Assembly: GCA_902778105.1 (NCBI GenBank)
Contig: CACYWN010000022.1
Location: 1-55,010, forward strand
DNA from: an uncultured Bacteroidia bacterium
Lineage (GTDB): Bacteria; Bacteroidota; Bacteroidia; Bacteroidales; UBA932
Length of the DNA stretch: 55,010 bases
Direction: 5' to 3'
Under the pieces are notes generated by a model, which was not told the origin of the DNA, made no database searches, and saw only the letters and a program-made list of their open reading frames with translations. A program made the position numbers and the translations under genes. This document shows, piece by piece, positions 4,356-48,087 of this stretch (within the stretch, counting starts at the first letter, position 1; every line of letters begins with the position of its first letter).

Positions 4356-4358
4356 TCT

Positions 4359-18908: not shown

Positions 18909-20156
18909 CTACCTCCCGTAACGGGCCTTGAAGGCGTCCCAGGAGTAGTATGGCCAGATTTCCGTGGCCAGGGGGAGATGTGCTTCTTCGCCGTTGAGGA
19001 GGACCTTGAAGAGGATTTCCGGATAGCGCCTGGAACGGTAGAAGACCAGCTGGAGGTTCGCGCCCATCGGGACGCGGTAAGTCTGGCACCAGGAGGGGAT
19101 GTCGTCGGGGTTGTCCACGTCGTGACCGAAACCGTCCACGTCCAGGATCATCAACAGGGGAAGGAGCGTATAGTCGTGGCCGAAGCGGAGGTCGGCGCCC
19201 ACGCGGCCTGCGGCGATGCGGTCGTCGGCCTTGGCAATGATGTCGTCCACGATGGGCTGATAGCCCAGGTGGGTGTTCCAGGCTTCGGCATAGAACTGGA
19301 AATCATCGACTTTCCAGAGCGCCAGCAGTTCGTCGGCGGTGAACAGGTCCCGGAAATCCAGCGACGTCTCCAGGCTGTTCATGCCCGCGGCGAAGAACCA
19401 GAGATAGGAGACCAGCCCCCACTGCTTGTCCGCGGGAACGGCCTTGTCCACGTCCTTGAACAGCCGCGCGAGGATGGCCTTGCTGTCCACGGTCCGCTGG
19501 ATGAACTGCGCCCAGGTCTCGTCAAACTTGACCGGTGTCTGCCGGAAGTTCTTATCCCTGAACGGATTGCCGCTGTCCTGTGGCAGGATGGCCGGCAGGA
19601 ACACCTTGCCGAAATTCTCGAACAGGTCGATGTCCGGGTTCATCCCCTTGAGCCCCTGGCAGAAAGCTGACATCGTCATGACGCAGCGGGTGGAGGTCGA
19701 AGTCCAGGCCCGGACCTCGGCCCCGTCCGGGAATATTTTCGGGAAGTTCAGGTACATCCGTTCTGCCAGTTTCTCCTGCTGCTTCCAGCCGCGGTAGGAC
19801 AGGTCGCCCACCCGGTAGCGGACCTCCGGATACAGGCTGTCGAAGCGGCGCTTGTAATCGGCTCCCAGTTCCGTCAGGTTGCTCTCGGCGGCGGCAGCGG
19901 ACAAGGCGTCATGGATTCTTTCATACAGGTCGCTCTGCCAGGCATAGCGGGCGCCGTGACGTCCGTAGTGGCTGATATAGAAGGGTTTGTATCCCTTCGG
20001 GGCCTTGGTGAGCGCGACCGGACCGGTGGGACAGAGGTAGTCGGTACCGGCCAGCAGTTCGGGGTGTGCCCTCAGGTGGGCGTCGATGTCCGGCTGCTGG
20101 GCCTGGGCCATCAGGACGGCCGCTGCGAAAAGGACGGAAAGGAGGATTCTTTTCAT
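18909..20156 (-). CDS. Histidine-type phosphatase (acid phosphatase/MINPP-like)
   Basis: A 415-residue secreted enzyme with a signal peptide ending 'LMAQAQ'. The histidine acid phosphatase core is present: 'YGRHGARYAW' (nucleophile His near 67) and the distal 'FGHDYTLLPLL' (His near 327). The family removes phosphate from phytate and other inositol phosphates, sugar phosphates or proteins; the HD rather than HAE end and the overall layout resemble MINPP-like phosphatases. It is the last gene of the leftward GH20-regulator-phosphatase operon. Its ATG overlaps the regulator stop (ATGA), so translation is probably coupled. The plus-strand ThiL-like gene ends right next to it. Substrate is unknown, but operon membership ties it to the glycan locus. 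Confidence 0.85.
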   Translation of the reverse strand: MKRILLSVLFAAAVLMAQAQQPDIDAHLRAHPELLAGTDYLCPTGPVALTKAPKGYKPFYISHYGRHGARYAWQSDLYERIHDALSAAAAESNLTELGADYKRRFDSLYPEVRYRVGDLSYRGWKQQEKLAERMYLNFPKIFPDGAEVRAWTSTSTRCVMTMSAFCQGLKGMNPDIDLFENFGKVFLPAILPQDSGNPFRDKNFRQTPVKFDETWAQFIQRTVDSKAILARLFKDVDKAVPADKQWGLVSYLWFFAAGMNSLETSLDFRDLFTADELLALWKVDDFQFYAEAWNTHLGYQPIVDDIIAKADDRIAAGRVGADLRFGHDYTLLPLLMILDVDGFGHDVDNPDDIPSWCQTYRVPMGANLQLVFYRSRRYPEILFKVLLNGEEAHLPLATEIWPYYSWDAFKARYGR

Positions 20157-21322
20157 GGGGTATGCGGTTTTCGTTGTTGTTCTCTCCACTGGAGCGGCGT
20201 GCAGCCGTAGATCTGCTTGAAACGGCGGGCGATGCTTTTGGTGTCGTTCTCTCCCATGGACAGGGCGATGCTCATCACCTGTTCGTCCGTTTCCTGTAAC
20301 TGTTCGGCGAAGTACTTGAGTTTCAGTTCGGTGATATACTCATACAGGGTTTTCCCCGTCACATCCTTGAAGCGCCGCTCCAGGAGCCGGCGGGACAAGG
20401 CGGCTTCGGTCATCACGTCCCGGACGGAAATCTTTCTTTTCACATTCCGGTGGATGAACAGGATGGCCTTCAGGATCTGCTGGTCATCCGTGGCGAAGGC
20501 CGCCGTGGACATCCTTCCCACGATCTTGACCGGCTGCAGGACGACGTCCTGCGCCGGAAGGGACGGGTCCGCGACCATGCGCTCGAGGAGGGCCGCCGTC
20601 TGCCGTCCCCCCTCCTCGATGTCCACGAGGATGCTGGACAGCGTGGCGCTTCCCAGGCTGCACAGCGTCTCGTCGTTGTCTACGCCCATGACGGACACTT
20701 CCGAGGGAATCCGGATGCCCGCCGAATGGCACGCCTCGATGAGATTCGCCCCCTGGTTGTCGTCGCAGGCCATGATGGCAATGGGTTTGGGAATCATCTG
20801 CAGCCATTCCCGCAGCCGGTTCCGCTGGTAGTACCAGACCATCTCGATTTCCTGCATCCGGTAGGTATAGAAACTGTCGCCGTAACCGGCCGCCTCCACT
20901 TCCCGCCGGAATCCGTCGCATCGTTCGTCGGACCAGCAGACATCGTTGAATCCGAAGAACCCGAAATTCCGGAACCCCCTGTCCAGGAAGAACCGGGCCG
21001 CCATCCTGCCGGTTCCCAGGTAATCGCCCGTGACGTTGGGAACCGACGGGAAGCGCTGCTTATAGTCCTGGGCCAGGACGAGGATCCCGTTTTCGTGGAA
21101 CAGGTCCAGGTCGTCCGTCGGTTCGAACTGGCCGACGACGGCGTCCACCTCCCATTCCTTTGCAATGCGGATGACTCCGGGTATGCCGATCTTTTCCTTA
21201 TAGGAGGTGGGCATCCGCCGGACAATCCACTGCTCCTGGCGGCGGGAGTAGTCCACGATTCCCGCCAGGAACTTGTGGGCAAAGGACTCCGTGAAGTCGG
21301 AAATGATAAGGATCCGGATCAT
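20153..21322 (-). CDS. XylR-type AraC family transcriptional regulator
   Basis: A 389-residue cytoplasmic regulator. Residues about 1-270 form a LacI/periplasmic-binding-protein-like sugar sensor ('DYLGTGRMAARFFLDRGFRNFGFFG', 'IMACDDNQGANLIEACHSAGIRIPSEVSVMGVDNDE'). Residues about 280-384 are a double-HTH AraC domain ('SVRDVMTEAALSRRLLERRFKDVTG', 'IARRFKQIYGCTPLQWR'). This is the architecture of E. coli XylR, which binds sugar and activates transcription. It lies 6 bases downstream of the GH20 gene and overlaps the phosphatase start by 4 bases. It probably controls both this operon and the divergent 24-kb operon through the shared region 23432-23645, where 21-bp-spaced direct repeats are present. 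The likely inducer is an amino sugar or a product of the target glycan. Confidence 0.9.
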   Translation of the reverse strand: MIRILIISDFTESFAHKFLAGIVDYSRRQEQWIVRRMPTSYKEKIGIPGVIRIAKEWEVDAVVGQFEPTDDLDLFHENGILVLAQDYKQRFPSVPNVTGDYLGTGRMAARFFLDRGFRNFGFFGFNDVCWSDERCDGFRREVEAAGYGDSFYTYRMQEIEMVWYYQRNRLREWLQMIPKPIAIMACDDNQGANLIEACHSAGIRIPSEVSVMGVDNDETLCSLGSATLSSILVDIEEGGRQTAALLERMVADPSLPAQDVVLQPVKIVGRMSTAAFATDDQQILKAILFIHRNVKRKISVRDVMTEAALSRRLLERRFKDVTGKTLYEYITELKLKYFAEQLQETDEQVMSIALSMGENDTKSIARRFKQIYGCTPLQWREQQRKPHTP

Positions 21323-21328
21323 GTGCGG

Positions 21329-23431
21329 TCAATGGCGGTGATAGGAAATGCCGAGGGAGTCGTAATACGGATATTCCCGTTCCACGACGGTCGTGAAAAA
21401 GCGGTTGAAGTCCTCCACGAAGGCGGGATCATCCGGCCGGGTGGTCTCCGCCCATGCCGGGGAGGCGTTCCAGCCCCGCTCGAACAGGCCGAGCGCCTTG
21501 GGGAACAGGTAATAGGTCACATGGTCGAAGTTGCGGAGGGTTTCCGCCCAGAGCTGACCCTGTACGCCGATGATGAAAGGCTTTCCTTCCGCGCTGAGGA
21601 CCGGTTTCCCTTCACCGGCCTTTTCCAGTTTCGCCGGCCGTCCCTTGTCGTCCCAGCGGACGCTCCGGTAGATGTCGTATGGGAGGAAGGAGAAGGAGCG
21701 CCGCTCGTCCACATACCCGCCCCAGTTATGGCCGCGCTCGGTCTTGGACGGGTTGTAGGCAAAGTCGAAATAGGCGTTGGAAGAGTTGGACAGGACCACG
21801 GGAACCCCTTCGTTCGCATAGGTGTAGGCGAGCTGGTCCCGGCCGCGGGAAACGGCCCACAGGTTCGTGAACGAGAGGTTCTTCCGCAGCCGGTCGAAGG
21901 TGGCGGGCTCCAGGTGCTGGCCCACTTCCTGCCAGCCGGCGAGTTTGACGCCCCTGGCCTCGGCGATGTCCAGCACGCGGTTGATATAGTAGTCCTTGAG
22001 CCAGCCGATGTCCGTCTTTCCATTGGCTTCCAGCAGCTTCCGGCAGGCGGGGGAACCTTCCCAGGCGCCTTCCGGCACCTCGTCCCCGCCCACGTGGATG
22101 GCCTCCAGCGGAACGCCGGCCTCGGCATAGAGGGCGATGAGACCGTCAAAGACCTTCCCGATGAAGGCATAGGTGGACGGCAGCGCCACGTTGATGGCAT
22201 TGTCGGTATAGTCCTGTACGGACACATACCGGGAAGTGTCCTCCGGTTCGGAGAGCAGACAGGTCGTGTCGCCGGTGGTCCGGGCCCGGTATTCCATCGC
22301 CTTGACCGCGGCGCGGGAATGTCCCGGTGTGTCGAATTCCGGGATGACCCGGATGTGGCGGGCGTCGGCGTAGCGGAGGATGTCCACGAAATCGGCGTGG
22401 GAGTAGTATCCGTTGCCCGTCGTCTCCGTGTCGTTGCGGTCCGGCGTCATGCAGTAGGTGGGCATCAGGGCATCGGGTTCCTCGATGGTGCCGTCCTCTT
22501 TCAGGACCGGAATGCCGCGGAAGGCGCCATAGGAAGTGAGTTCGGGAAGACCGTCGATCTCCACCCGCCAGCCTTCGTCGTCTCCCATGTGCAGGTGCAG
22601 GCGGTTGACTTTGTAATGGGCCAGGAGGTCGATGAGTTTCAGGAGGTTGTCCTTCTTTGTGAAGTTCCGGCTGATGTCCAGCATGATGCCGCGGTACGGG
22701 AGGTCCGGCCAGTCTTCCACGACGGCGGAGGGTACGGCGGTTGCCGGGCTGCCGGTTGCTGAGCTTGTCGAAGCACGGCGCAGGTTGTCCAGGGTGACGG
22801 AGGCGTAGTAAGCCCCGTCGGAATCGGCCGCTTCGACCTTCACTTCGCCGTTCAGGGTGATCCGGTACCAGCCGGGACGCTGTCCTTCGACGTAGGAGAC
22901 GGGAACATCGTCGGGAATCACCGTGGCGGCTGGACCTGCCGGGTCCACCACGACCTTCTTCAGGCGGGGGACCATGTCAAAGACACTCAGGTCCGCGCGG
23001 CTCCAGGCGAATCCGGCCATCGGCTCCGCAGGCAGGAAGACATATTCCGCCTCCACGGGAACGGGTTTCTTTCCCTTCCGCTGCAGATAGAACCCTTCCG
23101 GTGCCCGGCATTGGTTCGCCAGGGGCCGGGCCTCGTACCGCAGAACCATGTCACCTTTCTCCCGGTCCTTCCGGGGCGCGAGCCGGTAGAGCGTTCCGCC
23201 CAGGTGTTCGATGGTCCCATCACCTTCCAGGACTTGGACCGGGGTCCGGAACTGGCTGAACCAGAGGGTCCAATCCCCGCCGGCGGGCGGATTGACAAGC
23301 GTGAGTGCGTGGACGGCCTTGCCGGAACCGGGGTCGGTGGTCCCTTCCGTCCAGACGACGCGGGAGGGCGTGGAACAGGCCGCACCCAGGAGCGTGGCCA
23401 GGAACAGGCAGAAAAAGGATTTCTTGCGCAT
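21329..23431 (-). CDS. Beta-N-acetylhexosaminidase, GH20
   Basis: A 700-residue lipoprotein (signal peptide with 'TLLGAACS'). The N-terminal GH20b-type domain leads into a TIM barrel starting near 'PDLPYRGIMLDISRNF'. The catalytic Asp-Glu pair is in 'HVGGDEVPEGAW' (D450, E451), as in other GH20 enzymes that use the substrate acetamido group. It releases terminal beta-GlcNAc or GalNAc from chitooligosaccharides or host glycans in the periplasm or at the outer membrane. It is the first gene of the leftward operon, followed at once by the regulator. A -7-like box lies at 23458-23465. Further barrel motifs such as 'RVIPEFDTPGHSRA' and 'YANEGVPVVLSNS' are intact. Confidence 0.93.
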   Translation of the reverse strand: MRKKSFFCLFLATLLGAACSTPSRVVWTEGTTDPGSGKAVHALTLVNPPAGGDWTLWFSQFRTPVQVLEGDGTIEHLGGTLYRLAPRKDREKGDMVLRYEARPLANQCRAPEGFYLQRKGKKPVPVEAEYVFLPAEPMAGFAWSRADLSVFDMVPRLKKVVVDPAGPAATVIPDDVPVSYVEGQRPGWYRITLNGEVKVEAADSDGAYYASVTLDNLRRASTSSATGSPATAVPSAVVEDWPDLPYRGIMLDISRNFTKKDNLLKLIDLLAHYKVNRLHLHMGDDEGWRVEIDGLPELTSYGAFRGIPVLKEDGTIEEPDALMPTYCMTPDRNDTETTGNGYYSHADFVDILRYADARHIRVIPEFDTPGHSRAAVKAMEYRARTTGDTTCLLSEPEDTSRYVSVQDYTDNAINVALPSTYAFIGKVFDGLIALYAEAGVPLEAIHVGGDEVPEGAWEGSPACRKLLEANGKTDIGWLKDYYINRVLDIAEARGVKLAGWQEVGQHLEPATFDRLRKNLSFTNLWAVSRGRDQLAYTYANEGVPVVLSNSSNAYFDFAYNPSKTERGHNWGGYVDERRSFSFLPYDIYRSVRWDDKGRPAKLEKAGEGKPVLSAEGKPFIIGVQGQLWAETLRNFDHVTYYLFPKALGLFERGWNASPAWAETTRPDDPAFVEDFNRFFTTVVEREYPYYDSLGISYHRH

Positions 23432-23457
23432 GGTCAGTCTGTTTTGGTTTCCACAGC

Positions 23458-23465
23458 CAAAGATG
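23458..23465 (-). promoter_or_regulatory. -7-like box for the GH20 operon
   Basis: The minus strand reads CATCTTTG, one base off TAnnTTTG, 26 bases before the GH20 ATG. Confidence 0.45.
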
Positions 23466-23495
23466 GGAAAAAATATCTTGCAATAAAACGATTTG

Positions 23496-23526
23496 ACGCG
23501 AAATGTGTACTCAAATACGCAAATAT
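23496..23526. promoter_or_regulatory. 21-bp-spaced direct repeats, candidate regulator operator
   Basis: ACGCGAAAT at 23496 and ACGCAAAT at 23517 are direct repeats 21 bases (two helical turns) apart, in the region between the two divergent operons and just upstream of the rightward promoter. AraC-family activators typically bind such same-face direct repeats. The link to the XylR-type regulator is inference. Confidence 0.4.
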
Positions 23527-23551
23527 TCGTTCAAAGAGTGGTAATCGTTTC

Positions 23552-23559
23552 TATTTTTG
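23552..23559 (+). promoter_or_regulatory. Promoter -7 box for the 24-kb PUL operon
   Basis: TATTTTTG matches TAnnTTTG. It lies 26 bases beyond the direct repeats and 86 bases before the ROK kinase ATG, giving an unusually long leader for this window. Confidence 0.6.
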
Positions 23560-23580
23560 CAAAAAACGAGGACGCGTGTG

Positions 23581-23600
23581 AAAAGATTTTAAAATCTTTT
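23581..23600. promoter_or_regulatory. Perfect 20-bp AT-rich palindrome in the PUL operon leader
   Basis: AAAAGATTTT is followed immediately by its exact reverse complement, with no spacer. It sits about 15 bases after the predicted transcription start and 45 bases before the first ATG. It is 90% A+T within a GC-rich genome. It may be a dimeric-repressor operator or a leader hairpin. Confidence 0.5.
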
Positions 23601-23645
23601 ATAAAGTCGCGCCCGCTATACCTTAATTATAACACCGAAAAAACT

Positions 23646-24473
23646 ATGATCCTGGGTATCGATATCGGAGGCACGAACCTCAGCTTCGGTCTGGTCGAAG
23701 GAGGAAAAGTCACGAAGGGCTTTTCCACACCTTCGTTTCCGTCCGAGGCAACCATGGAACAGACATTGGACGACCTGTCCTCCCATATCCGCCGGATCCT
23801 GCATCCGGGCACGTCCAAAATCGGCATCGGCGTCCCTTCGGTCGTAGACGTCAAGCGCGGCATCGTCTACGACACCCAGAACATCCCGTCCTGGAAGGAA
23901 GTTCCCCTCAAGGAGTATCTGGAAGACTGTTTCCGCATCCCGGTCGCCGTGAACAATGACGCGAACTGCTACGCGATGGGTGTCTACGGATCCTATCCGG
24001 CCGCGGCCAAACCCGAGACGCTGGTCGCCGTCACGCTCGGAACCGGCGTGGGATTCGGCATCGTGAACGAGGGCCGGCTCTTCTGCGGGGCCAACTGCGG
24101 CGCCGGCGAACTGGGCTGCCTGCCTTACGGGGATTCGATCCTGGAGGATTATTGCAGCAAGAAATTCTTCACCGGTGCCGGCTGGAGCAGCCTGGACGCC
24201 TTCAAGGCCGCCGAGGCGGGAGATCCCGCCGCCCTGCTGCTGTTCGAGGAGTTCGGCCGCCACCTCGGCGCCCTCGTCACCACGGTGATGTACGCCTACG
24301 ACCCCGACCGGATCGCCCTGTCGGGCGGCATCGCCAACAACTATCCGTTCTTCTGCCAGGCAATGGAGGGCTACGTCCGGGAGCACTACCCGTACCGGAA
24401 ATCCCTCGAACGCCTGGAAATCGACATCTGTACCGACCATAACCTGCCGGTCCTCGGCGCAGCTCTGATCTAG
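23646..24473 (+). CDS. ROK family sugar kinase
   Basis: A 275-residue cytoplasmic kinase with the ROK ATP phosphate loop 'LGIDIGGTNLSFGLVEGG' at the N-terminus, 'VNNDANCYAMG' with the catalytic-base Asp (about residue 105), and 'LGTGVGFGIVNEGRL'. The Cys-rich zinc motif of many ROK members (CxCGxxGCxE) is largely missing: 'GANCGAGELG' is seen instead. ROK kinases phosphorylate glucose, GlcNAc, ManNAc or fructose. The surrounding hexosaminidase and glucosaminidase genes suggest GlcNAc or GlcN as substrate (inference). It is the first gene of the large rightward operon, with the GH2 gene 3 bases downstream. The start at 23646 is fixed by the ROK N-terminus; the longer upstream frame covers the promoter. 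Confidence 0.88.
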   Translation: MILGIDIGGTNLSFGLVEGGKVTKGFSTPSFPSEATMEQTLDDLSSHIRRILHPGTSKIGIGVPSVVDVKRGIVYDTQNIPSWKEVPLKEYLEDCFRIPVAVNNDANCYAMGVYGSYPAAAKPETLVAVTLGTGVGFGIVNEGRLFCGANCGAGELGCLPYGDSILEDYCSKKFFTGAGWSSLDAFKAAEAGDPAALLLFEEFGRHLGALVTTVMYAYDPDRIALSGGIANNYPFFCQAMEGYVREHYPYRKSLERLEIDICTDHNLPVLGAALI

Positions 24474-24476
24474 CCT

Positions 24477-26975
24477 ATGAACAAGCTTTGCCATGTACTT
24501 TCCCTCGCCGTCGTTACGGCCGCTTGCGCCGGGAACGCCGCCCCTTCCGGAAACCGCCAGGTCCTGACCGACGGCTGGACGCTCACGCGCGAAGGCGCTG
24601 CGGAGAAATTCGCCGCCCGGGTTCCCTCCACCGTCGCCGGCACCCTGTACGAAGCCGGTTATTTCGGCGAAGGCCTCCTGGAGGGGCGCGCGTACGAAAA
24701 AGTGGACAAATCGATTTTTGACGATACCTGGACCTACACCACCACCTTTGCCGGCAAGCCCGCCAAGGGGCAGCACGCCGAACTTGTGTTCGACGGGCTG
24801 AACTACTATGCCGACGTATTCCTGAACGGGAAGCAGATTGCTTTATCCGACACGACTTTCGGACCCTTCATCCAGCGGAAATATGATGTCACGAAGCTTC
24901 TGAAAAAGCGCAACAAACTGGAAGTCAAGCTCCGCCGGGCGCAGAAGGGAGACCTGAACCACGGTTTCGTGGACTGGAATCCCCGTCCGTTGGACGAAAG
25001 CATGGGTATCGTCCGCCCGGTCACCCTCCGGACGACGGGCCCCGTGTCCGTGGAGGACGTGTACGTGATTCCTGACCTGGACGTGGAATCGTTCGCGACG
25101 GCGGACCTGACCGTCCGCGTCACGCTTTCCAACAAGGAGGACCGGCCGGTGGACGCCGTCCTGGCGCTGGATCTCGGTGGGGGCAACGCAACCGTGCCGG
25201 TCGCCCTCGCCCCCTGCGAGACCAGGGAAATCACCCTGACTCCCGCCGAGGCCGCCCTCCTGCACCTGGACAACCCGCGTGTCTGGTGGACCTATGACCT
25301 TGGCAAGCCCGAGATGTACTGCCTGGCCGTCCGCGTGGATGCGGCCGGTGCCCTCTCGGATACGAAGGAGGTCGCTTTCGGCGTCCGCAAGGTCGAGAGC
25401 CGCCTGACCGAAAACAATGACCGCCAGTTCACCCTCAACGGGAAGGACATCCTCCTCAAGGGGGCCGGCTGGACGGACGACATTTTCCTGTGCGACACGC
25501 CCGAAACCATCGAAAGGCAGGTCCGCTACGTGAAGGACATGAACCTGAACCTCATCCGCTTCGAGAACATCTGGGGCAAGGACGACACCGTCTACGACCT
25601 GTGCGACCGGCTGGGCGTGCTCGCCCTCGTGGGCTTCAGCTGCCAGTGGGAGTGGGAGGATTACTGCGGGCTTCCGGAGGTCAAAGGCTACGGCTGTATC
25701 AACGGCCGGGAGGTCGAGGACCTCGCCGTCCGCTATTTCCACGACCAGGTGGTGCGCCTGCACAACCATCCGTCGGTCATCGCCTGGCTCACCGGCAGCG
25801 ACCGCATCCCGAATCCAGGCCTGGAGGAGCGCTATCTGGCCATTTTCGGGAAGGAAGACTACCGTCCCTACGTGTGCTCGGCGAAGCGCATCAGGAGCCT
25901 CGCCGGCTGGTCCGGCGCCAAGATGGAGGGCCCGTACGAATGGGTGGGTCCGGACTACTGGTACAAGGATACGGAAGCGGGCGGCGCCTTCGGCTGGAAT
26001 ACGGAAACCGGCATCGGCGCGAACCTGCCGCAGCTGGAATCCCTGAAGCGGATGATTCCGGAGGAAGCCCTCTGGCCGCTGTCCGACGTGTGGGACTACC
26101 ACTGCACCGCCTCCTCGTCCGCCATGAACACGACGAAGGTGCTGCAGGAGACCGTGAACGGCCTGTACGGCGGATTCGACTCCCTGGAGGACTTCGTCCG
26201 CAAGGCCCATGCCGTGGATTACGACGCTACCCGCGCCATGTTCGAGGCGTTCCGTGTCCGCGTCCCCCAGTCCACCGGGATCGTCCAGTGGATGCTGAAT
26301 TCCGCCTGGCCGTCCCTGTACTGGCAGCTCTATGACTGGTATGGAGTCCCGACGGCCGGCTATTACGGCACCAAGAAGGCCTGCGAGCCCATCCAGCTCC
26401 TGTTCGACTACGCCACGCGGAAGGTCTATGCGGTGAACGAGAGCGGCGATGCCGCCCCGCATGCCTTGCAGGCGACACTGCAGGTCTTCGATGCGAACTC
26501 GAAGCCTGTCGGGCAGGAGACCAAGGCCATCCGGGTGGGTTATCGCGAAGTGCTTCCCGTCTTCGACCTTACGCGTTACGACGGCAAGCCGCATTTCGTC
26601 GCCCTGGACCTGAAGGATGAAAACGGTCCGGTGGCGGACAACTTCTACTGCCTGCCCGCGAAGGACAACGAGTACAACTGGAAGAAGACCAACTGGTACA
26701 TAACCCCCGTCACCGCCTATGCCGACCTCGCCTTTGTTTTCAAACAGCCCGCGGCCGATGTGGAGATGACCGTGGAGGGGAACAGGGTCACCCTGACGAA
26801 CAAGTCGGGCGTCATCGCCTGCCAGAACATCCTCAAGGCGAAGGATGCCGACGGCAACCTGGTGGTTCCGGCGTACTGGAGCGACAATTTCTTCCCGCTT
26901 CTTCCGGGCGAGACCCGGACGGTCACCTGCGAAACCGGGGCTGCCGACGTGCATTATGAATTGGATAAGAGATAG
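24477..26975 (+). CDS. GH2 exo-beta-glucosaminidase-like glycosidase
   Basis: An 832-residue secreted GH2 enzyme. The N-terminus 'LSLAVVTAACAG' looks like a lipoprotein signal. Next come the jelly-roll sugar-binding domain ('YADVFLNGKQI', 'FGPFIQRKYDVTKLL') and Ig-like domain, then a TIM barrel. Two catalytic motifs match exo-beta-D-glucosaminidases of the CsxA type better than beta-galactosidases: acid/base 'WLTGSD' (D442) and nucleophile 'GWNTETGIG' (E510). Those enzymes take GlcN from the non-reducing end of chitosan oligomers; beta-mannosidase is the main alternative within GH2. Its position between an amino-sugar kinase and the SusCD genes supports the amino-sugar call. The alkaline phosphatase gene follows after 5 bases. 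Confidence 0.85.
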   Translation: MNKLCHVLSLAVVTAACAGNAAPSGNRQVLTDGWTLTREGAAEKFAARVPSTVAGTLYEAGYFGEGLLEGRAYEKVDKSIFDDTWTYTTTFAGKPAKGQHAELVFDGLNYYADVFLNGKQIALSDTTFGPFIQRKYDVTKLLKKRNKLEVKLRRAQKGDLNHGFVDWNPRPLDESMGIVRPVTLRTTGPVSVEDVYVIPDLDVESFATADLTVRVTLSNKEDRPVDAVLALDLGGGNATVPVALAPCETREITLTPAEAALLHLDNPRVWWTYDLGKPEMYCLAVRVDAAGALSDTKEVAFGVRKVESRLTENNDRQFTLNGKDILLKGAGWTDDIFLCDTPETIERQVRYVKDMNLNLIRFENIWGKDDTVYDLCDRLGVLALVGFSCQWEWEDYCGLPEVKGYGCINGREVEDLAVRYFHDQVVRLHNHPSVIAWLTGSDRIPNPGLEERYLAIFGKEDYRPYVCSAKRIRSLAGWSGAKMEGPYEWVGPDYWYKDTEAGGAFGWNTETGIGANLPQLESLKRMIPEEALWPLSDVWDYHCTASSSAMNTTKVLQETVNGLYGGFDSLEDFVRKAHAVDYDATRAMFEAFRVRVPQSTGIVQWMLNSAWPSLYWQLYDWYGVPTAGYYGTKKACEPIQLLFDYATRKVYAVNESGDAAPHALQATLQVFDANSKPVGQETKAIRVGYREVLPVFDLTRYDGKPHFVALDLKDENGPVADNFYCLPAKDNEYNWKKTNWYITPVTAYADLAFVFKQPAADVEMTVEGNRVTLTNKSGVIACQNILKAKDADGNLVVPAYWSDNFFPLLPGETRTVTCETGAADVHYELDKR

Positions 26976-26980
26976 ATACG

Positions 26981-28141: not shown

Positions 28142-28159
28142 CCCTATAAACAAAAACCG

Positions 28160-31351: not shown

Positions 31352-31363
31352 AACGGGCGTACC

Positions 31364-33193: not shown

Positions 33194-33211
33194 TCTAAAA
33201 AGTGCCCGACT

Positions 33212-35953: not shown

Positions 35954-35968
35954 ACCGGGAAACGAGAT

Positions 35969-37648: not shown

Positions 37649-37681
37649 CCGTCGTCTAACCTTGGATAAAACATACGAGAT

Positions 37682-39379: not shown

Positions 39380-39391
39380 TCCGCGTCAGCC

Positions 39392-40906: not shown

Positions 40907-40924
40907 CCTCAAACACGGCAGATT

Positions 40925-42757
40925 ATGGAAACGATTCATAGAATATTCCTGATGGGCGCGGCCCTCGTCATGGCAGCTTCCTGCCACGAAAAACCGACGG
41001 ACCCGGTGGACCCCATCCCCGCGGGTCCGGAACCCCAGACACAGACGCTTACCTTCGTCCTTCCCGACGTCGCGGCCGGGGAGGACGGGGAAATCCCCGC
41101 CGCCCTAAAGACCGCCTGGAAGGCCGGCGACCAGATCGTGATCCACGGCGAATATGCCAAGGACCAGGTGGTCGTGACCCTCGCCGCCGGGGACATTTCC
41201 GGCGACGGGAAATCCGCCACGGTGAAAGTGGACGGCCTCTATCCCTACGAGCGCGACGATTGCTCCAGCACCCTGTACGCCTCCTATCCGGCGTCGGTGG
41301 CCGACAATCTCAAGCACTGTTTCTTCTACAGCAAGTTCTCCACGACCAACGAGCAGCTCATGGCCGCCTGCAACAACGGCGACACCTTCCGGTTCCAGAA
41401 CATCTGCGGCATCCTGTCGATGACCGTGGAGGGGGATTTCGGCGGATACACCGTCTCCACGCCCAAGAAGGAGGCGGTGGGCTATGAGTTCCTGCAGGTG
41501 AAGGTCACCGACAACGAGCAGAACTACCGCCAGTACATCGGCAATCCCGTCCTCCAGCTGGACGGGACCGTCCAGGGCGGCGAGATCCTCGTGTTCGTCC
41601 CGGACGGCACGGCCTTCGCGAACGGCTTCGTCGTCAAGTTCAAGGAAGGGGACGACTACACCCGGATCTACAAATACACCGAGCCTCTGGAGATCGCCCG
41701 CGGCACCGTGGTGAACATCGGTGACATCACGGACGAGGTCCAGCACTACGACAACCCGTTCTCCAGCGACATCATCGACCTGGATGCGAAGGGCAATGCG
41801 AACAGCTACGTCATCACCGCCCCCGGCGGCTACAAGTTCAAGGCCGTCTATGGCAATGAATCCACGAGCTACCTCCAGGACGTGGACGCGGCCGAGGTCC
41901 TCTGGGAGACCTGGAACGATGTGTCCGAGGTTACGCCGGGAAGCGTCGTCGCCTCCGCCTCCTTCGCCGAGGACTACATCATCCTCCATACGCCCGAGAC
42001 CCTGCATCCCGGCAACGCCGTCATCGCGGCGAAGGATGCCGACGGCAAGATCCTCTGGAGCTGGCACATCTGGGTGCCTGCGACGGAAATCGTGACCGCG
42101 AGTTTCGGCGGGATCATGGGGAACGACCTGATGGACCGCAACCTGGGCGCCCTCGTGGCCACCGAGGCGACGGACGCCCCGGTCGATGCCCGTTCCTACG
42201 GCATGGTGTACCAGTGGGGCCGCAAGGACCCGTTCGTGGCCTCCGGCGTCGCCCTGGCGAACACCCTTGCCACGGTGGCCGGCGCGCAGGACGAGGTGGC
42301 GCCCGCCCAGATCACCCTGGAGGAATCCATCGCGAACCCGCGCCTGCTCGGTCACATCAACAACGGTGACTGGCTGCTTGTGCCGGACAACGAGATGTGG
42401 AGCGACACGGACAAGACCCGCTATGATCCCTGCCCGCCCGGATACCGCGTACCACCCATGAATACCACCGTCCCGTTCTGGAACAACATCTCCACCCAGG
42501 CCGGCTGGAGCGTGAATCTCAGTGCGGGATGGCTCACGATCGGCGTTCCCGCCACGGTCCTTCCGATCGCCGGCTACCGGGACGACTATTCCGTGGACGG
42601 CATGGCCAAAGTGGGCCTGAGAACCCTCCTGTGGACGGCGAAGAATTCGACCGACGCGGCCGGCAGCGGCAACGACCTCCGTCCCGACGGCGGCACCTTC
42701 GCGCTCAAGGGCGCGCCCAAGGCCCGCCTGGGCTCCGTCAGATGTGTTGTGGAATAA
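40925..42757 (+). CDS. Surface lipoprotein with one 'DRNLGAL...YDPCPPGYRVP' module
   Basis: A 610-residue lipoprotein (signal 'VMAASCHEK'). The N-terminal half resembles fimbrillin-type beta domains ('GEIPAALKTAWKAGDQIVIHGEY', 'LYPYERDDCSSTLYASYPAS'). The C-terminal half, from about 'KGNANSYVITAPGGYKFKAVYG', is a module that occurs twice more in the next gene. It contains 'GNAVIAAKDADGKILWSWHIWVP', 'MDRNLGALVA', 'YGMVYQWGRKDPF', 'YDPCPPGYRVPP' and ends 'RLGSVRCVVE'. This resembles the FISUMP-type domain of Bacteroidota and Fibrobacter surface proteins. Likely surface glycan-binding or adhesive role; no enzyme motif is seen. Confidence 0.75.
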   Translation: METIHRIFLMGAALVMAASCHEKPTDPVDPIPAGPEPQTQTLTFVLPDVAAGEDGEIPAALKTAWKAGDQIVIHGEYAKDQVVVTLAAGDISGDGKSATVKVDGLYPYERDDCSSTLYASYPASVADNLKHCFFYSKFSTTNEQLMAACNNGDTFRFQNICGILSMTVEGDFGGYTVSTPKKEAVGYEFLQVKVTDNEQNYRQYIGNPVLQLDGTVQGGEILVFVPDGTAFANGFVVKFKEGDDYTRIYKYTEPLEIARGTVVNIGDITDEVQHYDNPFSSDIIDLDAKGNANSYVITAPGGYKFKAVYGNESTSYLQDVDAAEVLWETWNDVSEVTPGSVVASASFAEDYIILHTPETLHPGNAVIAAKDADGKILWSWHIWVPATEIVTASFGGIMGNDLMDRNLGALVATEATDAPVDARSYGMVYQWGRKDPFVASGVALANTLATVAGAQDEVAPAQITLEESIANPRLLGHINNGDWLLVPDNEMWSDTDKTRYDPCPPGYRVPPMNTTVPFWNNISTQAGWSVNLSAGWLTIGVPATVLPIAGYRDDYSVDGMAKVGLRTLLWTAKNSTDAAGSGNDLRPDGGTFALKGAPKARLGSVRCVVE

Positions 42758-42777
42758 CAGAATAAAAACAGAACCAT

Positions 42778-45700
42778 ATGAAAAAGTTTTTCACCCTTGC
42801 AGTGCTGGCGCTCCTTGTGATCGGTTGCGCCAAGGAATATGACGATACGCCCATCCGGGACCTGATCGCCGGCCTGGATGCGCGGATCAGCGAGCTGGAG
42901 ACCTCCATCTCGGCCATCCAGTCCACGGTGGGCGACGGCAAGTTCGTCCGGAAAGTGGAGGAGTACAAGGACCCGGATACGGGCCGTACCACCGGCATCA
43001 CCGTCACTTACACCGACGGTAACGTCGTGCACTTCAACATCGTCCCGGCGGATCCCAGCCAGGGCCCCGTTTTCTCCGTCATCCGGAACGGAGCCGGCGA
43101 ACTGGTCTGGGCCGTGGACGGCGTGACCGTCAAGATGGACGGGGCGGATGTCCCTGTGTATCAGACGCCTGTCTTTACCATTGACGAGGAAGGCAACCTC
43201 CTCGTGGAAGTCGATGGCAAGACGACGAACCTCGGACCGGTCAAGAGCGAAGGCGCCACCCTCCAGGACGGCATCTTCACGAACCTCGCCGTCACCGACG
43301 AGGCCGTGGTCCTGACGCTCGCCGACGGTTCCACGGTGAACATCCCGTTCGCCGAGGCTTTCCGGCTGAACATCGAGAACACCGAGTTCACCTTCAGCGG
43401 CCTGGATCCCATCGAGATCCCCTACACCGTCTCCGCGAAGACCGAAGGCACCGTCGTGGGGGTCGCCGGTTACAGCCCCAAGGAGTTCAGTGTGGCCGTG
43501 GAGGCCGACAAGATCGTCGTCACGCCGCTCAGCGCCAAGTCCTCCGGCGTCCTCCTCGCCTATGCCGATTCCAAGGTGGGCCTGACCTCCCTGGTGAGCA
43601 TCACCGTGGAGGCCGAAGGTTTCGAGGTCACCGACGAGCCGTATGACATCGAAGTGGATTACATGGCTCCGGGCGAGGATGCCGTCGTCACGGTGAATGC
43701 CGTTTCCAACATCGCCTTCGAGGTCAAGCCCGTCGAGGAATGGATCCATGTGGCCAGCGTCAAGAGCTCGGCGTACGTCATCACGCTCAAGCTTGACGAC
43801 AACAAGACCGGTGAAATCCGGACCGGCACCGTGAACATCGTGAAGGCCGGCACCGAGGAGGTCGTCCAGACCATCCGGATCGCCCAGCTTCCCGCCATCG
43901 ACGAACTCGGCCCGAAGAACCTCAGCAAGAAAGGCGCGGCAAACAGCTACATCGTGACCGAGGCCGGCGAGTATAAGTTCTGGGCCGTGAAGGGCAACAG
44001 CGGCATCGAGGTCAATCCTGCTTCCGTGGAGGTCCTCTGGGAAACCTGGAACAACGCCGAGGAAGTCGCCGCGAACAGCGTGGTGGCCAGCGTGAGCCTC
44101 TCCGGCAGCTATGTGGTGTTCTCCACGCCGGAGACCCTCAAGCCCGGCAATGCCGTCATCGCGGCGAAGGATGCCGGCGGGGCCATCCTCTGGAGCTGGC
44201 ACATCTGGGTGCCTGAGACCGAGATCGTGACCGCGGATTACGGCATCTATCCTGCGCCGATGATGGACCGCAACCTGGGTGCCCTCGTGGCCGCCACGGC
44301 GGATGCCGCCGCGCCCGTCGAGTCCTTCGGCCTGACCTACCAGTGGGGCCGCAAGGACCCGTTCCCGGGCCCGAAGGCCGTCAAGAGCGGTGACAACGCC
44401 ACCGTCGCCGGCGTCGCGGTTTCCACGAAGCCCGGCAACGGCACCACCGCCGAATCCTGCATGACCGTCGAGGAAACCATCGCCAACCCGACCGTGCTGG
44501 GCTTCACCCAGAACGGCGACTGGCTCCCGGCCGAACTCGCGGATAACACGCTCTGGCAGAATGAGGTGAAGACCATGTACGACCCGTGCCCTCCGGGCTA
44601 CCGCGTTCCTGCGAGAGACACCGAGTCTGCCTTCCACAGTTCAGACCTCTCCACCGCGACCGGCTGGCAGGACAACGCCGCCAACAACTGGTTCGCCCTC
44701 GGTGACCCGCTGGCCGTCTTCCCGTATGCCGGTTACCGGGATGACTATTCCCCGGGCGGCATGACGCACGCCTACGACCGCGGAGCCTATTGGACCGCCT
44801 ATGCTTCCCAGGCTGCAAAGGCCTACTACGTGAATGTGCGTGCCGGTTCCGCCCACGCCCGGGCCGAGGCCGGCAAGTCCCGCGGCGGTTCCGTCCGCTG
44901 CGTCTCCGCCGATGAAACACCCATCCTTCCTCCGGATGAGCCCACTGAACCTACGGGCGGCGCCATCGACCTGAGCGAAACCGCCAGTGCGAACAGCTAC
45001 CTCGTGACCAAGGCCGGCGACTTCAAGTTCAAGGCCGTCAAGGGCAATTCCGACGAGTCCGTGGGTGCCGTGGCGGAAGCCGTGGTCCTGTGGGAGACCG
45101 AGAATACGGAAACGGCCCCCGAAGCCGGAGCCATCATCGCCAAGGCCGGTTTTGCCGACGGCTATGTCACCTTCTCCACGCCGGCGGCCCTGAAGCCCGG
45201 CAACGCCCTCATCGCGGCGAAGGATGCCGCCGGCGTCGTCCTCTGGAGCTGGCACATCTGGATTCCGGAGACGGAGGTTACCGCGAGCACTTTCGGCGGC
45301 ATTGTGAACAACCCCATGATGGACCGCAACCTGGGTGCCCTCGTGGCGGCCCAGGCCGGCGAAGCCGAGCCGGATGTCCGTTCCCACGGACTGTTCTACA
45401 CCTGGGGCCGCAAGGATCCGTTCCCGGCCCCGAACGTGCAGACCACCGGTGAGGTCAAGTATGACGGCGCGCTGATGACCATCGCGGAGAGCGTCCAGAA
45501 CCCGACCGTGTACGTGAAGACCGGCGGGGACAGCGTGAAGGACTGGACCACCGAGATGTCCAACAGTCTCTGGGGTGCCGAAAAGACGGTGTACGACCCG
45601 TGCCCGGCCGGCTACAAGGTCGCCTACCGCGACAAGAGCGAGCCGTTCTGGGGTGGTATCTCCGGCGCCGTCGGCTATGAGTTCAACACGACGTACAAGT

Positions 45701-45927
45701 GGTTCAAGGCGGGCGACCCGGCCACCGTGTTCCCGGTTCCCGGCTATATCGACCAGGGCTCCCTGGAGCGGGCGGGTGTCCGCGCCTATATCTGGAGTTC
45801 CTATGCCTCCAGCGGCGACCTGAACATCGCCTATCAGATGTATGTCAACAGCGGTTCCATTTCCGTGACCGAGCAGCGCAAGTCCCGCGCGGGCAACATC
45901 CGCTGCGTCGCGGAGCCGGCCGAATAG
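42778..45927 (+). CDS. Large surface lipoprotein with two tandem FISUMP-like modules
   Basis: A 1049-residue lipoprotein (signal 'ALLVIGCAKE'). A short coiled coil 'IRDLIAGLDARISELETSISAIQSTV' opens a DUF4988-like N-terminal domain. A BACON-like region follows (about residues 285-375). Two modules, at about residues 380-710 and 735-1045, each run from '(A)NSYxVTxAGxxKFxAVKGNS' through 'GNAxIAAKDAxGxxLWSWHIWxPETE', 'MMDRNLGALVAA' and 'YDPCPxGYxVxxRD' to 'RCV'. They match the single module of the previous gene closely, down to shared nucleotide runs around the 'LWSWHIW' codons. Probably the largest surface-exposed binding protein of the locus. Confidence 0.78.
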   Translation: MKKFFTLAVLALLVIGCAKEYDDTPIRDLIAGLDARISELETSISAIQSTVGDGKFVRKVEEYKDPDTGRTTGITVTYTDGNVVHFNIVPADPSQGPVFSVIRNGAGELVWAVDGVTVKMDGADVPVYQTPVFTIDEEGNLLVEVDGKTTNLGPVKSEGATLQDGIFTNLAVTDEAVVLTLADGSTVNIPFAEAFRLNIENTEFTFSGLDPIEIPYTVSAKTEGTVVGVAGYSPKEFSVAVEADKIVVTPLSAKSSGVLLAYADSKVGLTSLVSITVEAEGFEVTDEPYDIEVDYMAPGEDAVVTVNAVSNIAFEVKPVEEWIHVASVKSSAYVITLKLDDNKTGEIRTGTVNIVKAGTEEVVQTIRIAQLPAIDELGPKNLSKKGAANSYIVTEAGEYKFWAVKGNSGIEVNPASVEVLWETWNNAEEVAANSVVASVSLSGSYVVFSTPETLKPGNAVIAAKDAGGAILWSWHIWVPETEIVTADYGIYPAPMMDRNLGALVAATADAAAPVESFGLTYQWGRKDPFPGPKAVKSGDNATVAGVAVSTKPGNGTTAESCMTVEETIANPTVLGFTQNGDWLPAELADNTLWQNEVKTMYDPCPPGYRVPARDTESAFHSSDLSTATGWQDNAANNWFALGDPLAVFPYAGYRDDYSPGGMTHAYDRGAYWTAYASQAAKAYYVNVRAGSAHARAEAGKSRGGSVRCVSADETPILPPDEPTEPTGGAIDLSETASANSYLVTKAGDFKFKAVKGNSDESVGAVAEAVVLWETENTETAPEAGAIIAKAGFADGYVTFSTPAALKPGNALIAAKDAAGVVLWSWHIWIPETEVTASTFGGIVNNPMMDRNLGALVAAQAGEAEPDVRSHGLFYTWGRKDPFPAPNVQTTGEVKYDGALMTIAESVQNPTVYVKTGGDSVKDWTTEMSNSLWGAEKTVYDPCPAGYKVAYRDKSEPFWGGISGAVGYEFNTTYKWFKAGDPATVFPVPGYIDQGSLERAGVRAYIWSSYASSGDLNIAYQMYVNSGSISVTEQRKSRAGNIRCVAEPAE

Positions 45928-45937
45928 AACCCGGACC

Positions 45938-47995
45938 ATGAAAATGACATCTCACATATTCCTCGTGCTGCTCCTGGGCCTTCTGACGGCCCAGGGGTGC
46001 ACCGACGACCGTATGGGGATGGCCGTTCCGAACCCCGGTTCCAAGCCCGCGGCGGGGGAGATCCCTACCGGGGACCCCTTCAATCCCGACGCGCCCCCGA
46101 CCCCGGTGGACCCGACAGATCCCACGGACCCCTGGTCGCAGAATCCGGAGCGGCTCGCCCGGCTGGGCAAGACCCCCATCATCGAGGTCTATTATACCGA
46201 GTACACCCGGGCGGATCTGTTCCCGTCCCTGGAAGAGGTGCGTAACTTTACCCACATCAACGTGGGTCACGCCCGTTTCCAGGACAAGGACAACGGGACC
46301 GGCATCGCCATCGACCCCAAGAGCATCCCGCTGATCCAGCGGTTCGTCGCCTACAAGGCGCAGTACCCGGAACTGAAGGTGAAGGTGCAGATGGGCGGCT
46401 GGGGCAAGAATGCCGACGGCTGGTCCCAGATGGCCGGGGACCCGGTGAAGCGCAAGGCGTTCGTGGATGCGTGCGTGGACATGTGCAACACCTATGGCGT
46501 GGACGGGTTCGACATCGACTGGGAGTATCCCACCTATGCGGCCAAGGACGGCGACCATGTGAACGCCGCCAGCCCGGCGGACTGGGAGAATTTCGTCACG
46601 CTCTTCAAGGAGATGCGCGAGGCGATGCCGGACAAGATTCTCTCCTATGCGGCGTCCGACAGCGGCAAGTACACGGACAACTACGGCGTACTTCCGTACA
46701 TCGACTACATCAACGTGATGACCTACGACGAGGGCAACCCGCCGTACCACAACGCTCCGCTGTACCGGAGCTCGATCACGGGCAGCCGCTGCTGCGCGGA
46801 GGCCATCGACGACATCTTCCACGGTCAGCAGAAGATCCCGTACCAGATGATGAACTTCGGCCTCGCGTTCTACGGCCACGGCGACGGATACAAGCTCAAG
46901 ACGGGCAACCGGTATCCTGCGTCGGTGGACTACAGCAAGCTGAATGACATCTTCTTCAAGGGAACCTGCGACGGCTATGACGTCAAGGGCGTGAACTATC
47001 GCATCTGGGACGACGTCGCGAAGGTCCCGTACCTCGCCGACGCCCTGGGCAAGATGTACGCCAGCTATGAGGACATCGAGTCCATCAATGCGAAGGTGGA
47101 ATACCTCAAGTCCCGGAACATGCTTGGCGCGATGATCTGGGAGTACCGGCATGATGACGACGCTGGCACCCTCCGTCATGCGGTGAAGCATGCCATGGAC
47201 GGAACGCCCGATGCACCAGGCAAATACGAGCGTCCGGAGGAGTACCATCCGAAGGAGGTGCCCGTGATGGGCAAGGTCGAATTCTCCAAGAAGCTCCAGA
47301 GCGGCAGCGCCATCGTGGAGGAACTCTCCGGCCTGTGCCTGTCCAAGGACGGCGACTTCCTCTGGGGCGTAGGGGACAACGGCGCCCTGTACAAGATCAA
47401 CTTCGACGGTTCCTTCACGCAGCACTGGACCTATGAGGCCGACATGGAAGGCCTGTGCATGGACCCGGCCACCGGGACGATGTACATGGCCATCGAGCCC
47501 AAGCGCGTGTATAGCCTGGCGGCCCCGTACCAGTCCAAAACGACCCTGTGGGACGTGGCCGAGGCGGAAAGCATGGGCAACTCCGGCATCGAGGGCATCG
47601 CCTGGCACAAGGGCAATCTGTACCTGGGCTCCCAGACCGGCGCCACCCTGTGGGAATACGCCCTGGACGGCACCCGGCTGTGGAAACGGAGTCTCCGCGA
47701 CGTGACGCCCACGATTTCGGAGATCGCCGGCCTGGACTACGATGCGCAGAACGACTGGCTCTGGGTCATCGACTCCAATTCCAACAAGGAAAACCCGCAG
47801 TACCTGGGCTACACGGTGTATCTGTTCAACGGCGACGCGACCGAACTTCTCGCGACCTACTACGTGGGCGACTTCGCCAACTGGAATCCGGAGAGCATCT
47901 GCGTGGACCGCAAGAACGGATGCATCTGGGTGGCTGACGACTGTGGCGACGCCACCCCGTCCATCCTGCACAAGATCCAGTTCTCGGGGCTCTAG
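45938..47995 (+). CDS. GH18 chitinase-type lipoprotein with C-terminal beta-propeller
   Basis: A 685-residue lipoprotein (signal 'LLTAQGCTDD') with a proline/aspartate-rich linker. The GH18 TIM barrel (about residues 65-415) carries the full catalytic motif DGFDIDWEYP, i.e. D189, D192, D194 and the acid E196, and 'VMTYDEGNPPYHN' with the Met-x-Tyr-Asp motif. This points to endo-acting cleavage of beta-1,4-GlcNAc chains (chitin type) or chitobiose cores. The C-terminal part (about 445-685) resembles the SdiA-regulated/YjiK beta-propeller: 'ELSGLCLSKDGDFLWGVGDNGALYKINFDG', 'GIEGIAWHKGNLYLG', 'PESICVDRKNGCIWVADD'. It is the last gene of the operon, with a terminator 16 bases after the stop. The endo-enzyme for the locus is most likely this protein. 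Confidence 0.88.
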   Translation: MKMTSHIFLVLLLGLLTAQGCTDDRMGMAVPNPGSKPAAGEIPTGDPFNPDAPPTPVDPTDPTDPWSQNPERLARLGKTPIIEVYYTEYTRADLFPSLEEVRNFTHINVGHARFQDKDNGTGIAIDPKSIPLIQRFVAYKAQYPELKVKVQMGGWGKNADGWSQMAGDPVKRKAFVDACVDMCNTYGVDGFDIDWEYPTYAAKDGDHVNAASPADWENFVTLFKEMREAMPDKILSYAASDSGKYTDNYGVLPYIDYINVMTYDEGNPPYHNAPLYRSSITGSRCCAEAIDDIFHGQQKIPYQMMNFGLAFYGHGDGYKLKTGNRYPASVDYSKLNDIFFKGTCDGYDVKGVNYRIWDDVAKVPYLADALGKMYASYEDIESINAKVEYLKSRNMLGAMIWEYRHDDDAGTLRHAVKHAMDGTPDAPGKYERPEEYHPKEVPVMGKVEFSKKLQSGSAIVEELSGLCLSKDGDFLWGVGDNGALYKINFDGSFTQHWTYEADMEGLCMDPATGTMYMAIEPKRVYSLAAPYQSKTTLWDVAEAESMGNSGIEGIAWHKGNLYLGSQTGATLWEYALDGTRLWKRSLRDVTPTISEIAGLDYDAQNDWLWVIDSNSNKENPQYLGYTVYLFNGDATELLATYYVGDFANWNPESICVDRKNGCIWVADDCGDATPSILHKIQFSGL

Positions 47996-48059: not shown

Positions 48060-48087
48060 CGGGAACTAACCCGTGACCTATCGCAGT

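Follow-up and report, generated by a model that had tools for sequence, protein, structure and literature searches.

Two unrelated phosphatases that look tied to glycosidases in an amino-sugar SusCD locus of uncultured Bacteroidales

Chitin and chitosan utilisation loci, as a class, bring together glycoside hydrolases of families 18 and 20 (GH18 and GH20), a glucosaminidase and SusCD-type transport genes. Here we describe a locus from an uncultured Bacteroidales bacterium (genome of 2.66 Mb, 84% complete), located on contig CACYWN010000022.1 (C22), whose full length of 55,010 nucleotides is the window analysed. The locus shares its enzyme classes and layout with chitin and chitosan loci but adds two phosphatases from unrelated superfamilies, together with a phytase-like propeller on the GH18 enzyme. 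The phosphatases are an alkaline phosphatase of the PhoA superfamily (AP; 26981..28141, + strand) and a histidine phosphatase of branch 2 (HP2; 18909..20156, − strand). The GH2 enzyme of the locus resembles the exo-beta-D-glucosaminidase CsxA; the two differ in that AP is the usual neighbour of the window-type GH2 and is sometimes part of the same polypeptide, whereas for CsxA itself we know of no AP link. The histidine phosphatase shares its family, the RHGxR motif and an export signal with BtMinpp of Bacteroides thetaiotaomicron, and differs in carrying HD rather than the HAE that marks MINPPs, in lying within an amino-sugar operon and in having genus relatives fused to glycosidases. On balance, we lean towards a locus that imports a phosphate-bearing glycan of beta-linked glucosamine or N-acetylglucosamine, with dephosphorylation built into exo-cleavage; judged from sequence, both phosphatases look functionally tied to glycosidases.

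The linkage between AP and GH2 was traced in 43 AP-ortholog loci, 39 from genomes of the genus and 4 from named public contigs (L147, L148, L150 and L152). A GH2 gene on the same strand was located within 1 kb of AP in 40/43 loci and at 2.2 kb in one (L138), and none was found near the AP ortholog in L141 and L152. The AP ortholog of L152 has nearby a protein with Exo_endo_phos and glycerophosphodiester phosphodiesterase (GDPD) domains (3808-5526, − strand). From the opposite direction, we collected 48 GH2 loci at ≥51% identity (best piece), two of which end at a contig edge (G245 and G273), leaving 46 determinable; AP was present at 38/48. Thus AP hardly occurs without GH2, and the reverse does not hold.

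In 10/43 loci, GH2 and AP form one continuous frame (L094, L122, L123, L124, L132, L133, L135, L136, L137 and L142), nine measuring 1183-1281 amino acids (aa) between stop codons and one, truncated at a contig end, measuring 1128 aa. The fused frame opens with the GH2 signal, and its AP half lacks the signal peptide of the free-standing APs, as judged by eye. On an AP tree of 57 sequences, the fused rows require at least four changes (4-4 at the 5%-95% points of 200 bootstrap trees), forming four groups (L124/L142; L122/L132/L133/L135/L136; L123/L137; L094), and a single clade of fused rows was rejected (approximately unbiased test, p-AU 4.2e-9). A quick tree of the GH2 part gave five changes, 4 of them forced by supported branches, and likewise rejected a single clade (p-AU 1.5e-65). 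We read these changes mostly as gains, since a signal peptide would have to arise anew at every fission.

As a control, we counted fusions among adjacent same-strand gene pairs in 53 loci of the system. GH2 and AP were fused in 10/37 adjacent pairs, while no fusion occurred in, among others, SusC1-SusD1 (0/20), SusD1-SusC2 (0/17) and GH18-SusC1 (0/16). AP was also unfused to its other neighbours, namely GH20 (0/12), SusC1 (0/9) and GH18 (0/7). The ROK kinase gene and GH2 were fused in 0/32 pairs; this is a weak control, because the kinase looks cytosolic. Other fused pairs were histidine phosphatase-propeller (6/6), GH18-propeller (5/5), FIS1-propeller (2/2) and one histidine phosphatase-GH20, FIS1 being a lipoprotein of the locus.

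Both phosphatases recur in relatives of the bacterium. In an even sample of 151 genus genomes taken from a larger group, histidine phosphatase orthologs (≥56% identity) were found in 20, and AP orthologs (≥53% identity) at 39 places in 38 genomes, one copy, in G210, being truncated where its contig ends. An AP ortholog was present in 19/20 carriers of the histidine phosphatase versus 19/131 other genomes (Fisher p 1e-12, with no correction for kinship). In 16/20 carriers the two phosphatases share a locus, 13 of these having the divergent layout of the window, with ROK placed behind AP in G279 and G213. G151 has the divergent layout divided between two contigs. In G200 (read outside 47.8-55.0 kb) and G203, AP and the histidine phosphatase ortholog share the locus at a distance of 27-30 kb, the latter standing towards its distal end. 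The earlier note on this DNA had named the absence of these phosphatases from orthologous loci of close relatives as grounds for dropping its proposal; instead, both are kept there. Three side observations concern how the locus varies among relatives. Another GH18 gene often directly precedes SusC1 (16 adjacent pairs; for example, L089 13470-14489), a gene that the window lacks; in G164 the SusCD-GH18 half (L275) is separate from the GH2-AP half (L124); and G175 (L278) contains several additional GH18 genes, some of which are joined to lipoproteins of the FIS1 type.

The GH2 enzyme (24477..26975, + strand, with a lipoprotein-like signal) shows the sequence marks of exo-beta-D-glucosaminidases (GH2_16). 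It matches CsxA (PDB 2vzs) with E 6e-110 over aa 15-825, near its full length, and carries the Ig_GlcNase domain PF18368. In a 2025 division of GH2, the GH2_16 glucosaminidases are marked by an SD motif replacing NE and by a Glu replacing a conserved His (PMC12243196). The window enzyme and 47/47 compared GH2 sequences of its group carry the SD motif (aa 441-442 in the window); Glu 363 replaces the His in 47/47 and aligns with the Glu of RLEGH in CsxA, the equivalence of residues being our own reading of the alignment; and the nucleophile, Glu 510, is also present in 47/47. The window enzyme and CsxA are alike in all these respects. A PADLOC match of GH2 to a CARF-beta-galactosidase model (E 1e-33) was put down to the shared GH2 domain and that reading rejected; PADLOC returned no match for either phosphatase.

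Both phosphatases keep their catalytic motifs. AP (PF00245, E 2.6e-78; export signal by eye) matches PDB 2w5v with E 4e-62, and in an alignment of 15 of the 43 orthologs, Asp70, Ser111, Glu277, Asp282, His286, Asp324, His325 and His351 are identical in 15/15. Arg175, present in the window, is found in 14/15 rows, with Val in one. We take these positions to comprise the Ser nucleophile, the metal ligands and the phosphate-binding Arg, the first two also being read from the 2w5v alignment. The histidine phosphatase (PF00328, E 3.7e-14) matches PDB 7r5y with E 9.4e-42 and MINPP entries with E ~1e-38. Its start was set by codon scoring, under which an ATG with its first base at 20156 scores better and the overlap with the neighbouring regulator gene is 4 bases; an alternative open reading frame (ORF) of 426 aa begins upstream at a GTG. 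In the numbering of this 426-aa ORF, the motifs are RHGAR (aa 77-81) and HD (aa 338-339). MINPPs are marked by an HAE proton-donor triplet according to PMC3969271, and the triplet is 'frequently' HAE according to PMC7762957. Since the enzyme has RHGxR and HD without HAE, we regard it as an HP2 phosphatase that is not a MINPP by motif, and the MINPP reading was rejected on that ground.

Within the genus, histidine phosphatases are themselves found in fused frames. In G203, a 1090-aa frame consists of a signal peptide, a histidine phosphatase and the orthologous GH20 (63%). Elsewhere, the partners were GH92 (L287), a melibiase-like domain (L108, with a phosphatase part 57% identical to that of the window), a metallophosphoesterase (L291), GDPD (L297), GH20 (L282) and a beta-helix (L295). 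Two of these frames belong to the window's own genome: a 1282-aa GH92-histidine phosphatase frame on contig C9 (L287 10765-14610, − strand), which suggests that this organism also uses a mannan-type glycan bearing phosphate, and the GDPD frame on contig C21 (L297 7698-9725, − strand). The phosphodiester glycosidase NAGPA shares one frame with a histidine phosphatase in L293 (8034-10145) and, in the opposite order, in L288 (10714-12936) and L289 (8049-10214); fusion in both orders suggests that a phosphate is uncovered and then removed. L294 carries two histidine phosphatase stretches in one frame. In L293, L289 and L295 the phosphatase falls below the Pfam cut-off, and in L288 it is absent from the Pfam matches; there it rests on a tblastn match. 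Of 18 frames listed, six are of ordinary length (412-507 aa) and leave no room for a partner, and L292 is unreadable from the match start. A less biased check of NAGPA, made in 7 genomes that were selected from those carrying the system, found that 5/22 matches share a frame with a histidine phosphatase, with 5 more within ~3 kb of one.

The GH18 enzyme (45938..47995, + strand; PF00704, E 2e-48) is a lipoprotein that appears chitinase-like: its best PDB matches are chitinases (5gzu, E 6e-66), and the DxxDxDxE active-site motif reads DGFDIDWE (aa 189-196); it may alternatively be an endo-N-acetylglucosaminidase. Its C-terminal Phytase-like/SdiA-regulated propeller domain (47312..47992, + strand) scores 35.2 bits for PF13449 (cut-off 27.6) and 22.5 bits for PF06977 (cut-off 21) when isolated, and 28.5 and 18.0 bits against the same cut-offs within the whole GH18. 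A single-sequence structure model of the propeller is nearly all strand, at low confidence (predicted local distance difference test score, pLDDT, 50), and a sequence search of PDB with the domain gave no match. Fusion partners of the propeller in the loci compared are GH18, histidine phosphatase orthologs (L096, L097, L098, L100, L106 and L107) and lipoproteins adjacent to AP paralogs, including one (L046) from the genome that contains the window. Twelve genomes, each selected as a phosphatase carrier, yielded 19 matches: 4 fused to a histidine phosphatase, 5 less than 6 kb from an AP paralog, 4 in the GH18 of a GH2-AP locus, 4 elsewhere (3 of them in G164) and two left unassigned (one at a contig end in G215, the other on C9 of G175, where AP is 28 kb away). 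G084 carries both phosphatases and gave no propeller match. The domain may serve in binding or in phosphoester cleavage. At L046 (contig C26), the neighbours of a paralogous AP are the lipoprotein-propeller protein and two DUF4832/DUF4874 proteins, and the contig also has a SusD match; this would be a second phosphatase-bearing locus in the genome.

Beyond the genus, the comparison covered the best 80 of at least 573 AP loci, many of them short and those of low GC content read with plain ORFs. Seven of the 80 (L147-L153, including three duplicates) resemble the window, and these nearest named records are Bacteroidales assemblies, several of them from goat and water buffalo (rumen or omasum). 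Among the remaining 73, none has a window-type GH2 directly beside AP; L158 and L180 have a distant GH2 2.5-5.4 kb away. In five loci read (L154, L160, L272, L273 and L274), an AP of 44-47% identity stands beside GH92, with Exo_endo_phos in two (L154 and L273) and GH125 in L273. These loci of other Bacteroidales are similar to that of the window in having an AP of the same broad group and, in four of five, SusC or SusD genes, but their enzymes are of mannan type instead of GH18, GH20 and GH2, and their AP frames are of ordinary length. In Tannerella (L155), an AP gene of 50% identity abuts a GH20 gene. Because APs adjoin GH92 or GH20 outside the genus, phosphatases in glycan loci appear to be a wider theme; the AP-GH2 amino-sugar variant was seen, among the loci compared, solely in this genus and its close named kin. 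Among the papers listed from the open-access literature, we found no polysaccharide utilization locus (PUL) of this make-up and no AP-GH2 fusion, which is weak evidence of absence. The earlier note knew of no standard PUL with this combination; SusCD loci of other composition also contain phosphatases.

The remainder of the locus conforms to a SusCD-type PUL, with two susC-susD pairs, GH18, GH20 and GH2 enzymes and a XylR-type regulator. The leftward operon comprises the histidine phosphatase, the regulator (20153..21322, − strand), which joins a Peripla_BP_3 sugar-sensor domain (PF13377) to an AraC-type helix-turn-helix (PF12833, PF00165), and a GH20 beta-hexosaminidase (21329..23431, − strand; PF00728, E 3e-84) with an HVGGDE motif and a lipoprotein-like signal. 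Between the GH20 and ROK starts lie 214 bases (23432..23645) that presumably hold the promoters. The facing 12-gene rightward operon opens with the ROK-family sugar kinase (23646..24473; PF00480, E 4.9e-36), whose start is likely 23646 rather than a TTG at 23493 by codon scoring, and continues through GH2 and AP to SusC-like TonB-dependent transporter 1 (28160..31351; PF07715, PF13715), SusD-like lipoprotein 1 (31364..33193; PF07980, E 3.6e-42), SusC-like TonB-dependent transporter 2 (33212..35953; PF07715 plug, E 2.7e-07) and SusD-like lipoprotein 2 (35969..37648; PF07980, E 1.1e-49). Two BACON-domain lipoproteins follow (37682..39379, PF13004 E 9e-31; 39392..40906, PF13004 E 7e-18), and then FIS1 (40925..42757), which matches no Pfam family at E 0.01 and has homologs in the loci of relatives, FIS2 (42778..45927), a lipoprotein with DUF4988 and BACON domains and a sub-threshold FISUMP match, and finally GH18, all on the + strand. 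Successive genes are spaced by 3, 5, 18, 12, 18, 15, 33, 12, 18, 20 and 10 bases. Export signals on both phosphatases and lipoprotein-like signals on GH20, GH2, GH18, the SusDs and the four lipoproteins were judged by eye only. A direct check of the window confirmed the facing operons, gene content and 3-33 base gaps described in the earlier note; its inventory was correct as far as it went, having missed the C-terminal propeller of GH18 and a GH31 gene (48073..50484, + strand; PF01055, E 1e-56) that begins after a 77-base gap behind the operon. GH31 was also found in G215 and had no match behind GH18 in the G293 stretch (L110), so it is probably not a constant part of the locus. The arrangement of the two operons recurs in relatives and is thus more than chance. 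Antisense to the operon runs an open frame of 4100 aa (26954-39256, − strand), which we attribute to the biased codon usage of GC-rich genes, the sense genes explaining the stretch. Elsewhere in the window, the second of two tandem TonB-like genes (17328-17907, + strand) is split by a frame break and could be a pseudogene or reflect a sequence error; the same gene is unbroken in the neighbour genome G215 (L089 2299-2991).

In the reading that we favour, GH18 at the cell surface would cut the chain and the SusCD pairs would import the fragments. Periplasmic AP would strip phosphate from the non-reducing amino sugar, upon which the GH2 exo-glucosaminidase could release that sugar, and the histidine phosphatase would do likewise for the GH20 arm. 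The ROK kinase would pass the free sugar into metabolism, and the XylR-type regulator would sense the product and control both operons. Cell location, enzyme activity, the order of steps and the phosphate on the glycan itself are predictions here. The repeated fusion of a phosphatase to an exo-glycosidase makes action of both domains on one molecule the simplest account. Candidate substrates from general knowledge are fungal walls, modified bacterial polysaccharides and lipid A. The earlier note had suggested that the natural substrate carries phosphate, or that phosphate is harvested along with the sugar, and had offered a glycosylphosphatidylinositol (GPI)-type glycan and inositol phosphate among the examples. 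That proposal is supported in part: both phosphatases probably belong to the amino-sugar system, as indicated by the orthologous loci, by AP-GH2 fusion in 10/43 loci and by the histidine phosphatase-GH20 fusion. Known members of the GH2 subfamily cut beta-linked glucosamine and the glucosamine of GPI is alpha-linked, so a GPI-type substrate is unlikely for GH2 and was rejected.

Several observations weigh against this reading. We know of no obvious phosphorylated beta-glucosamine polymer that could be the substrate. In the stretch read, 8/46 GH2 loci lack AP (G226, G162, G255, G242, G167, G266, G154 and a second copy in G200), so GH2 can serve alone, and the AP-less G226 enzyme is 77-80% identical to that of the window. 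A quick GH2 tree scatters the AP-less rows (7 changes, of which supported branches force 6), from which we conclude that AP was lost or gained several times. FIS1 and GH18 share a frame in 3/7 pairs, and several different partners are joined to the propeller; fusion is therefore not confined to phosphatases, which counts against seeing meaning in every fusion. The fused histidine phosphatase of G203 is only 31% identical to that of the window, whose ortholog lies elsewhere in the locus, and the list of fusions outside the locus is biased, having been picked mainly for long frames, with 10 proteins scanned by domain. In G195, G216 and G261 the histidine phosphatase ortholog is on another contig than AP, and G245 (a 1.2 Mb assembly in 210 contigs) has a histidine phosphatase with no AP ortholog. 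Finally, in three genomes a histidine phosphatase lies within 15 kb of 11/61 SusD clusters, a lower bound because some weak matches were left out; against this background, the idea that its adjacency alone is telling was set aside.

The last figure also fits an account in which ordinary chitin- or chitosan-like material is degraded and phosphate is scavenged from accompanying compounds, for example of fungal or bacterial walls, instead of from the same molecule. HP2 enzymes and APs have broad phosphomonoesterase activity as families, the histidine phosphatases are also fused to GDPD and to a metallophosphoesterase, which suits general phosphate mining, and the AP-less GH2 loci point the same way. 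Such scavenging, however, leaves unexplained why AP is tied to one glycosidase, with GH2 near in 41/43 loci, fusion in four tree groups and the other AP pairs unfused, and the operons are accompanied by a sugar-type regulator; we consider it unlikely, while giving it appreciable weight. The link between GH2 and AP might instead be a chance of history, in which neighbours in an ancestral operon occasionally lost a stop codon, with no functional meaning. Fusion of the two is mechanically easy, since the genes are mostly less than ~110 bases apart and both products look exported, and FIS1-GH18 is another exported pair that fuses. Under that account, the absence of fusion between AP and GH20, GH18 or SusC1 would be unexpected, as would the retention of GH2-AP fusions, lacking the second signal peptide, across 10 genomes and four groups of the tree, and we hold it to be improbable.

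Two further alternatives concern the substrate. Lipid A is a beta-linked glucosamine disaccharide with phosphate at its non-reducing end, and its chemistry suits the pairing of AP with an exo-glucosaminidase: AP would remove the 4'-phosphate of the de-acylated beta-1,6-linked disaccharide, and GH2 would then split it. Yet the combination of GH18 and GH20 with two SusCD pairs argues for a polymer of N-acetylglucosamine, and no Kdo (3-deoxy-D-manno-octulosonic acid) or heptose enzymes were recognised in the operons of the window, making this the most doubtful of the alternatives. The histidine phosphatase could also be a phytase-type enzyme for inositol phosphates, unrelated to the glycan, as would accord with the MINPPs that make up most of its matches among solved structures, with the Pfam family 'Phytase-like' matched by the GH18 propeller and with the HD motif, which is that of ordinary phytases. 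The HAE of MINPPs, as defined in PMC3969271, is not present, and relatives within the genus have GH20, GH92, a melibiase-like domain and NAGPA as fusion partners; we rate such a role as improbable too, if marginally less so than the chance of history.

More broadly, and more tentatively than for the locus itself, the fusions raise the possibility of an unrecognised form of phosphoglycan catabolism in Bacteroidales. Two unrelated phosphatase superfamilies may be modules that work with exo-glycosidases and phosphodiester glycosidases, having repeatedly been joined to them (AP-GH2 and histidine phosphatase-GH20, -GH92 and -NAGPA) as bifunctional 'dephosphorylate-then-cleave' enzymes aided by a phytase-like propeller, and in the window they would serve a phosphorylated beta-glucosamine glycan. 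The fusions allow this idea to be tested directly with one recombinant protein. If it is true, phosphate-bearing amino-sugar glycans would be a joint source of carbon and phosphorus for gut-type Bacteroidales, the fused proteins would be natural bifunctional phosphatase-glucosaminidase enzymes, and phosphatase-glycosidase fusion would provide a sequence signature for phosphoglycan pathways in uncultured bacteria.

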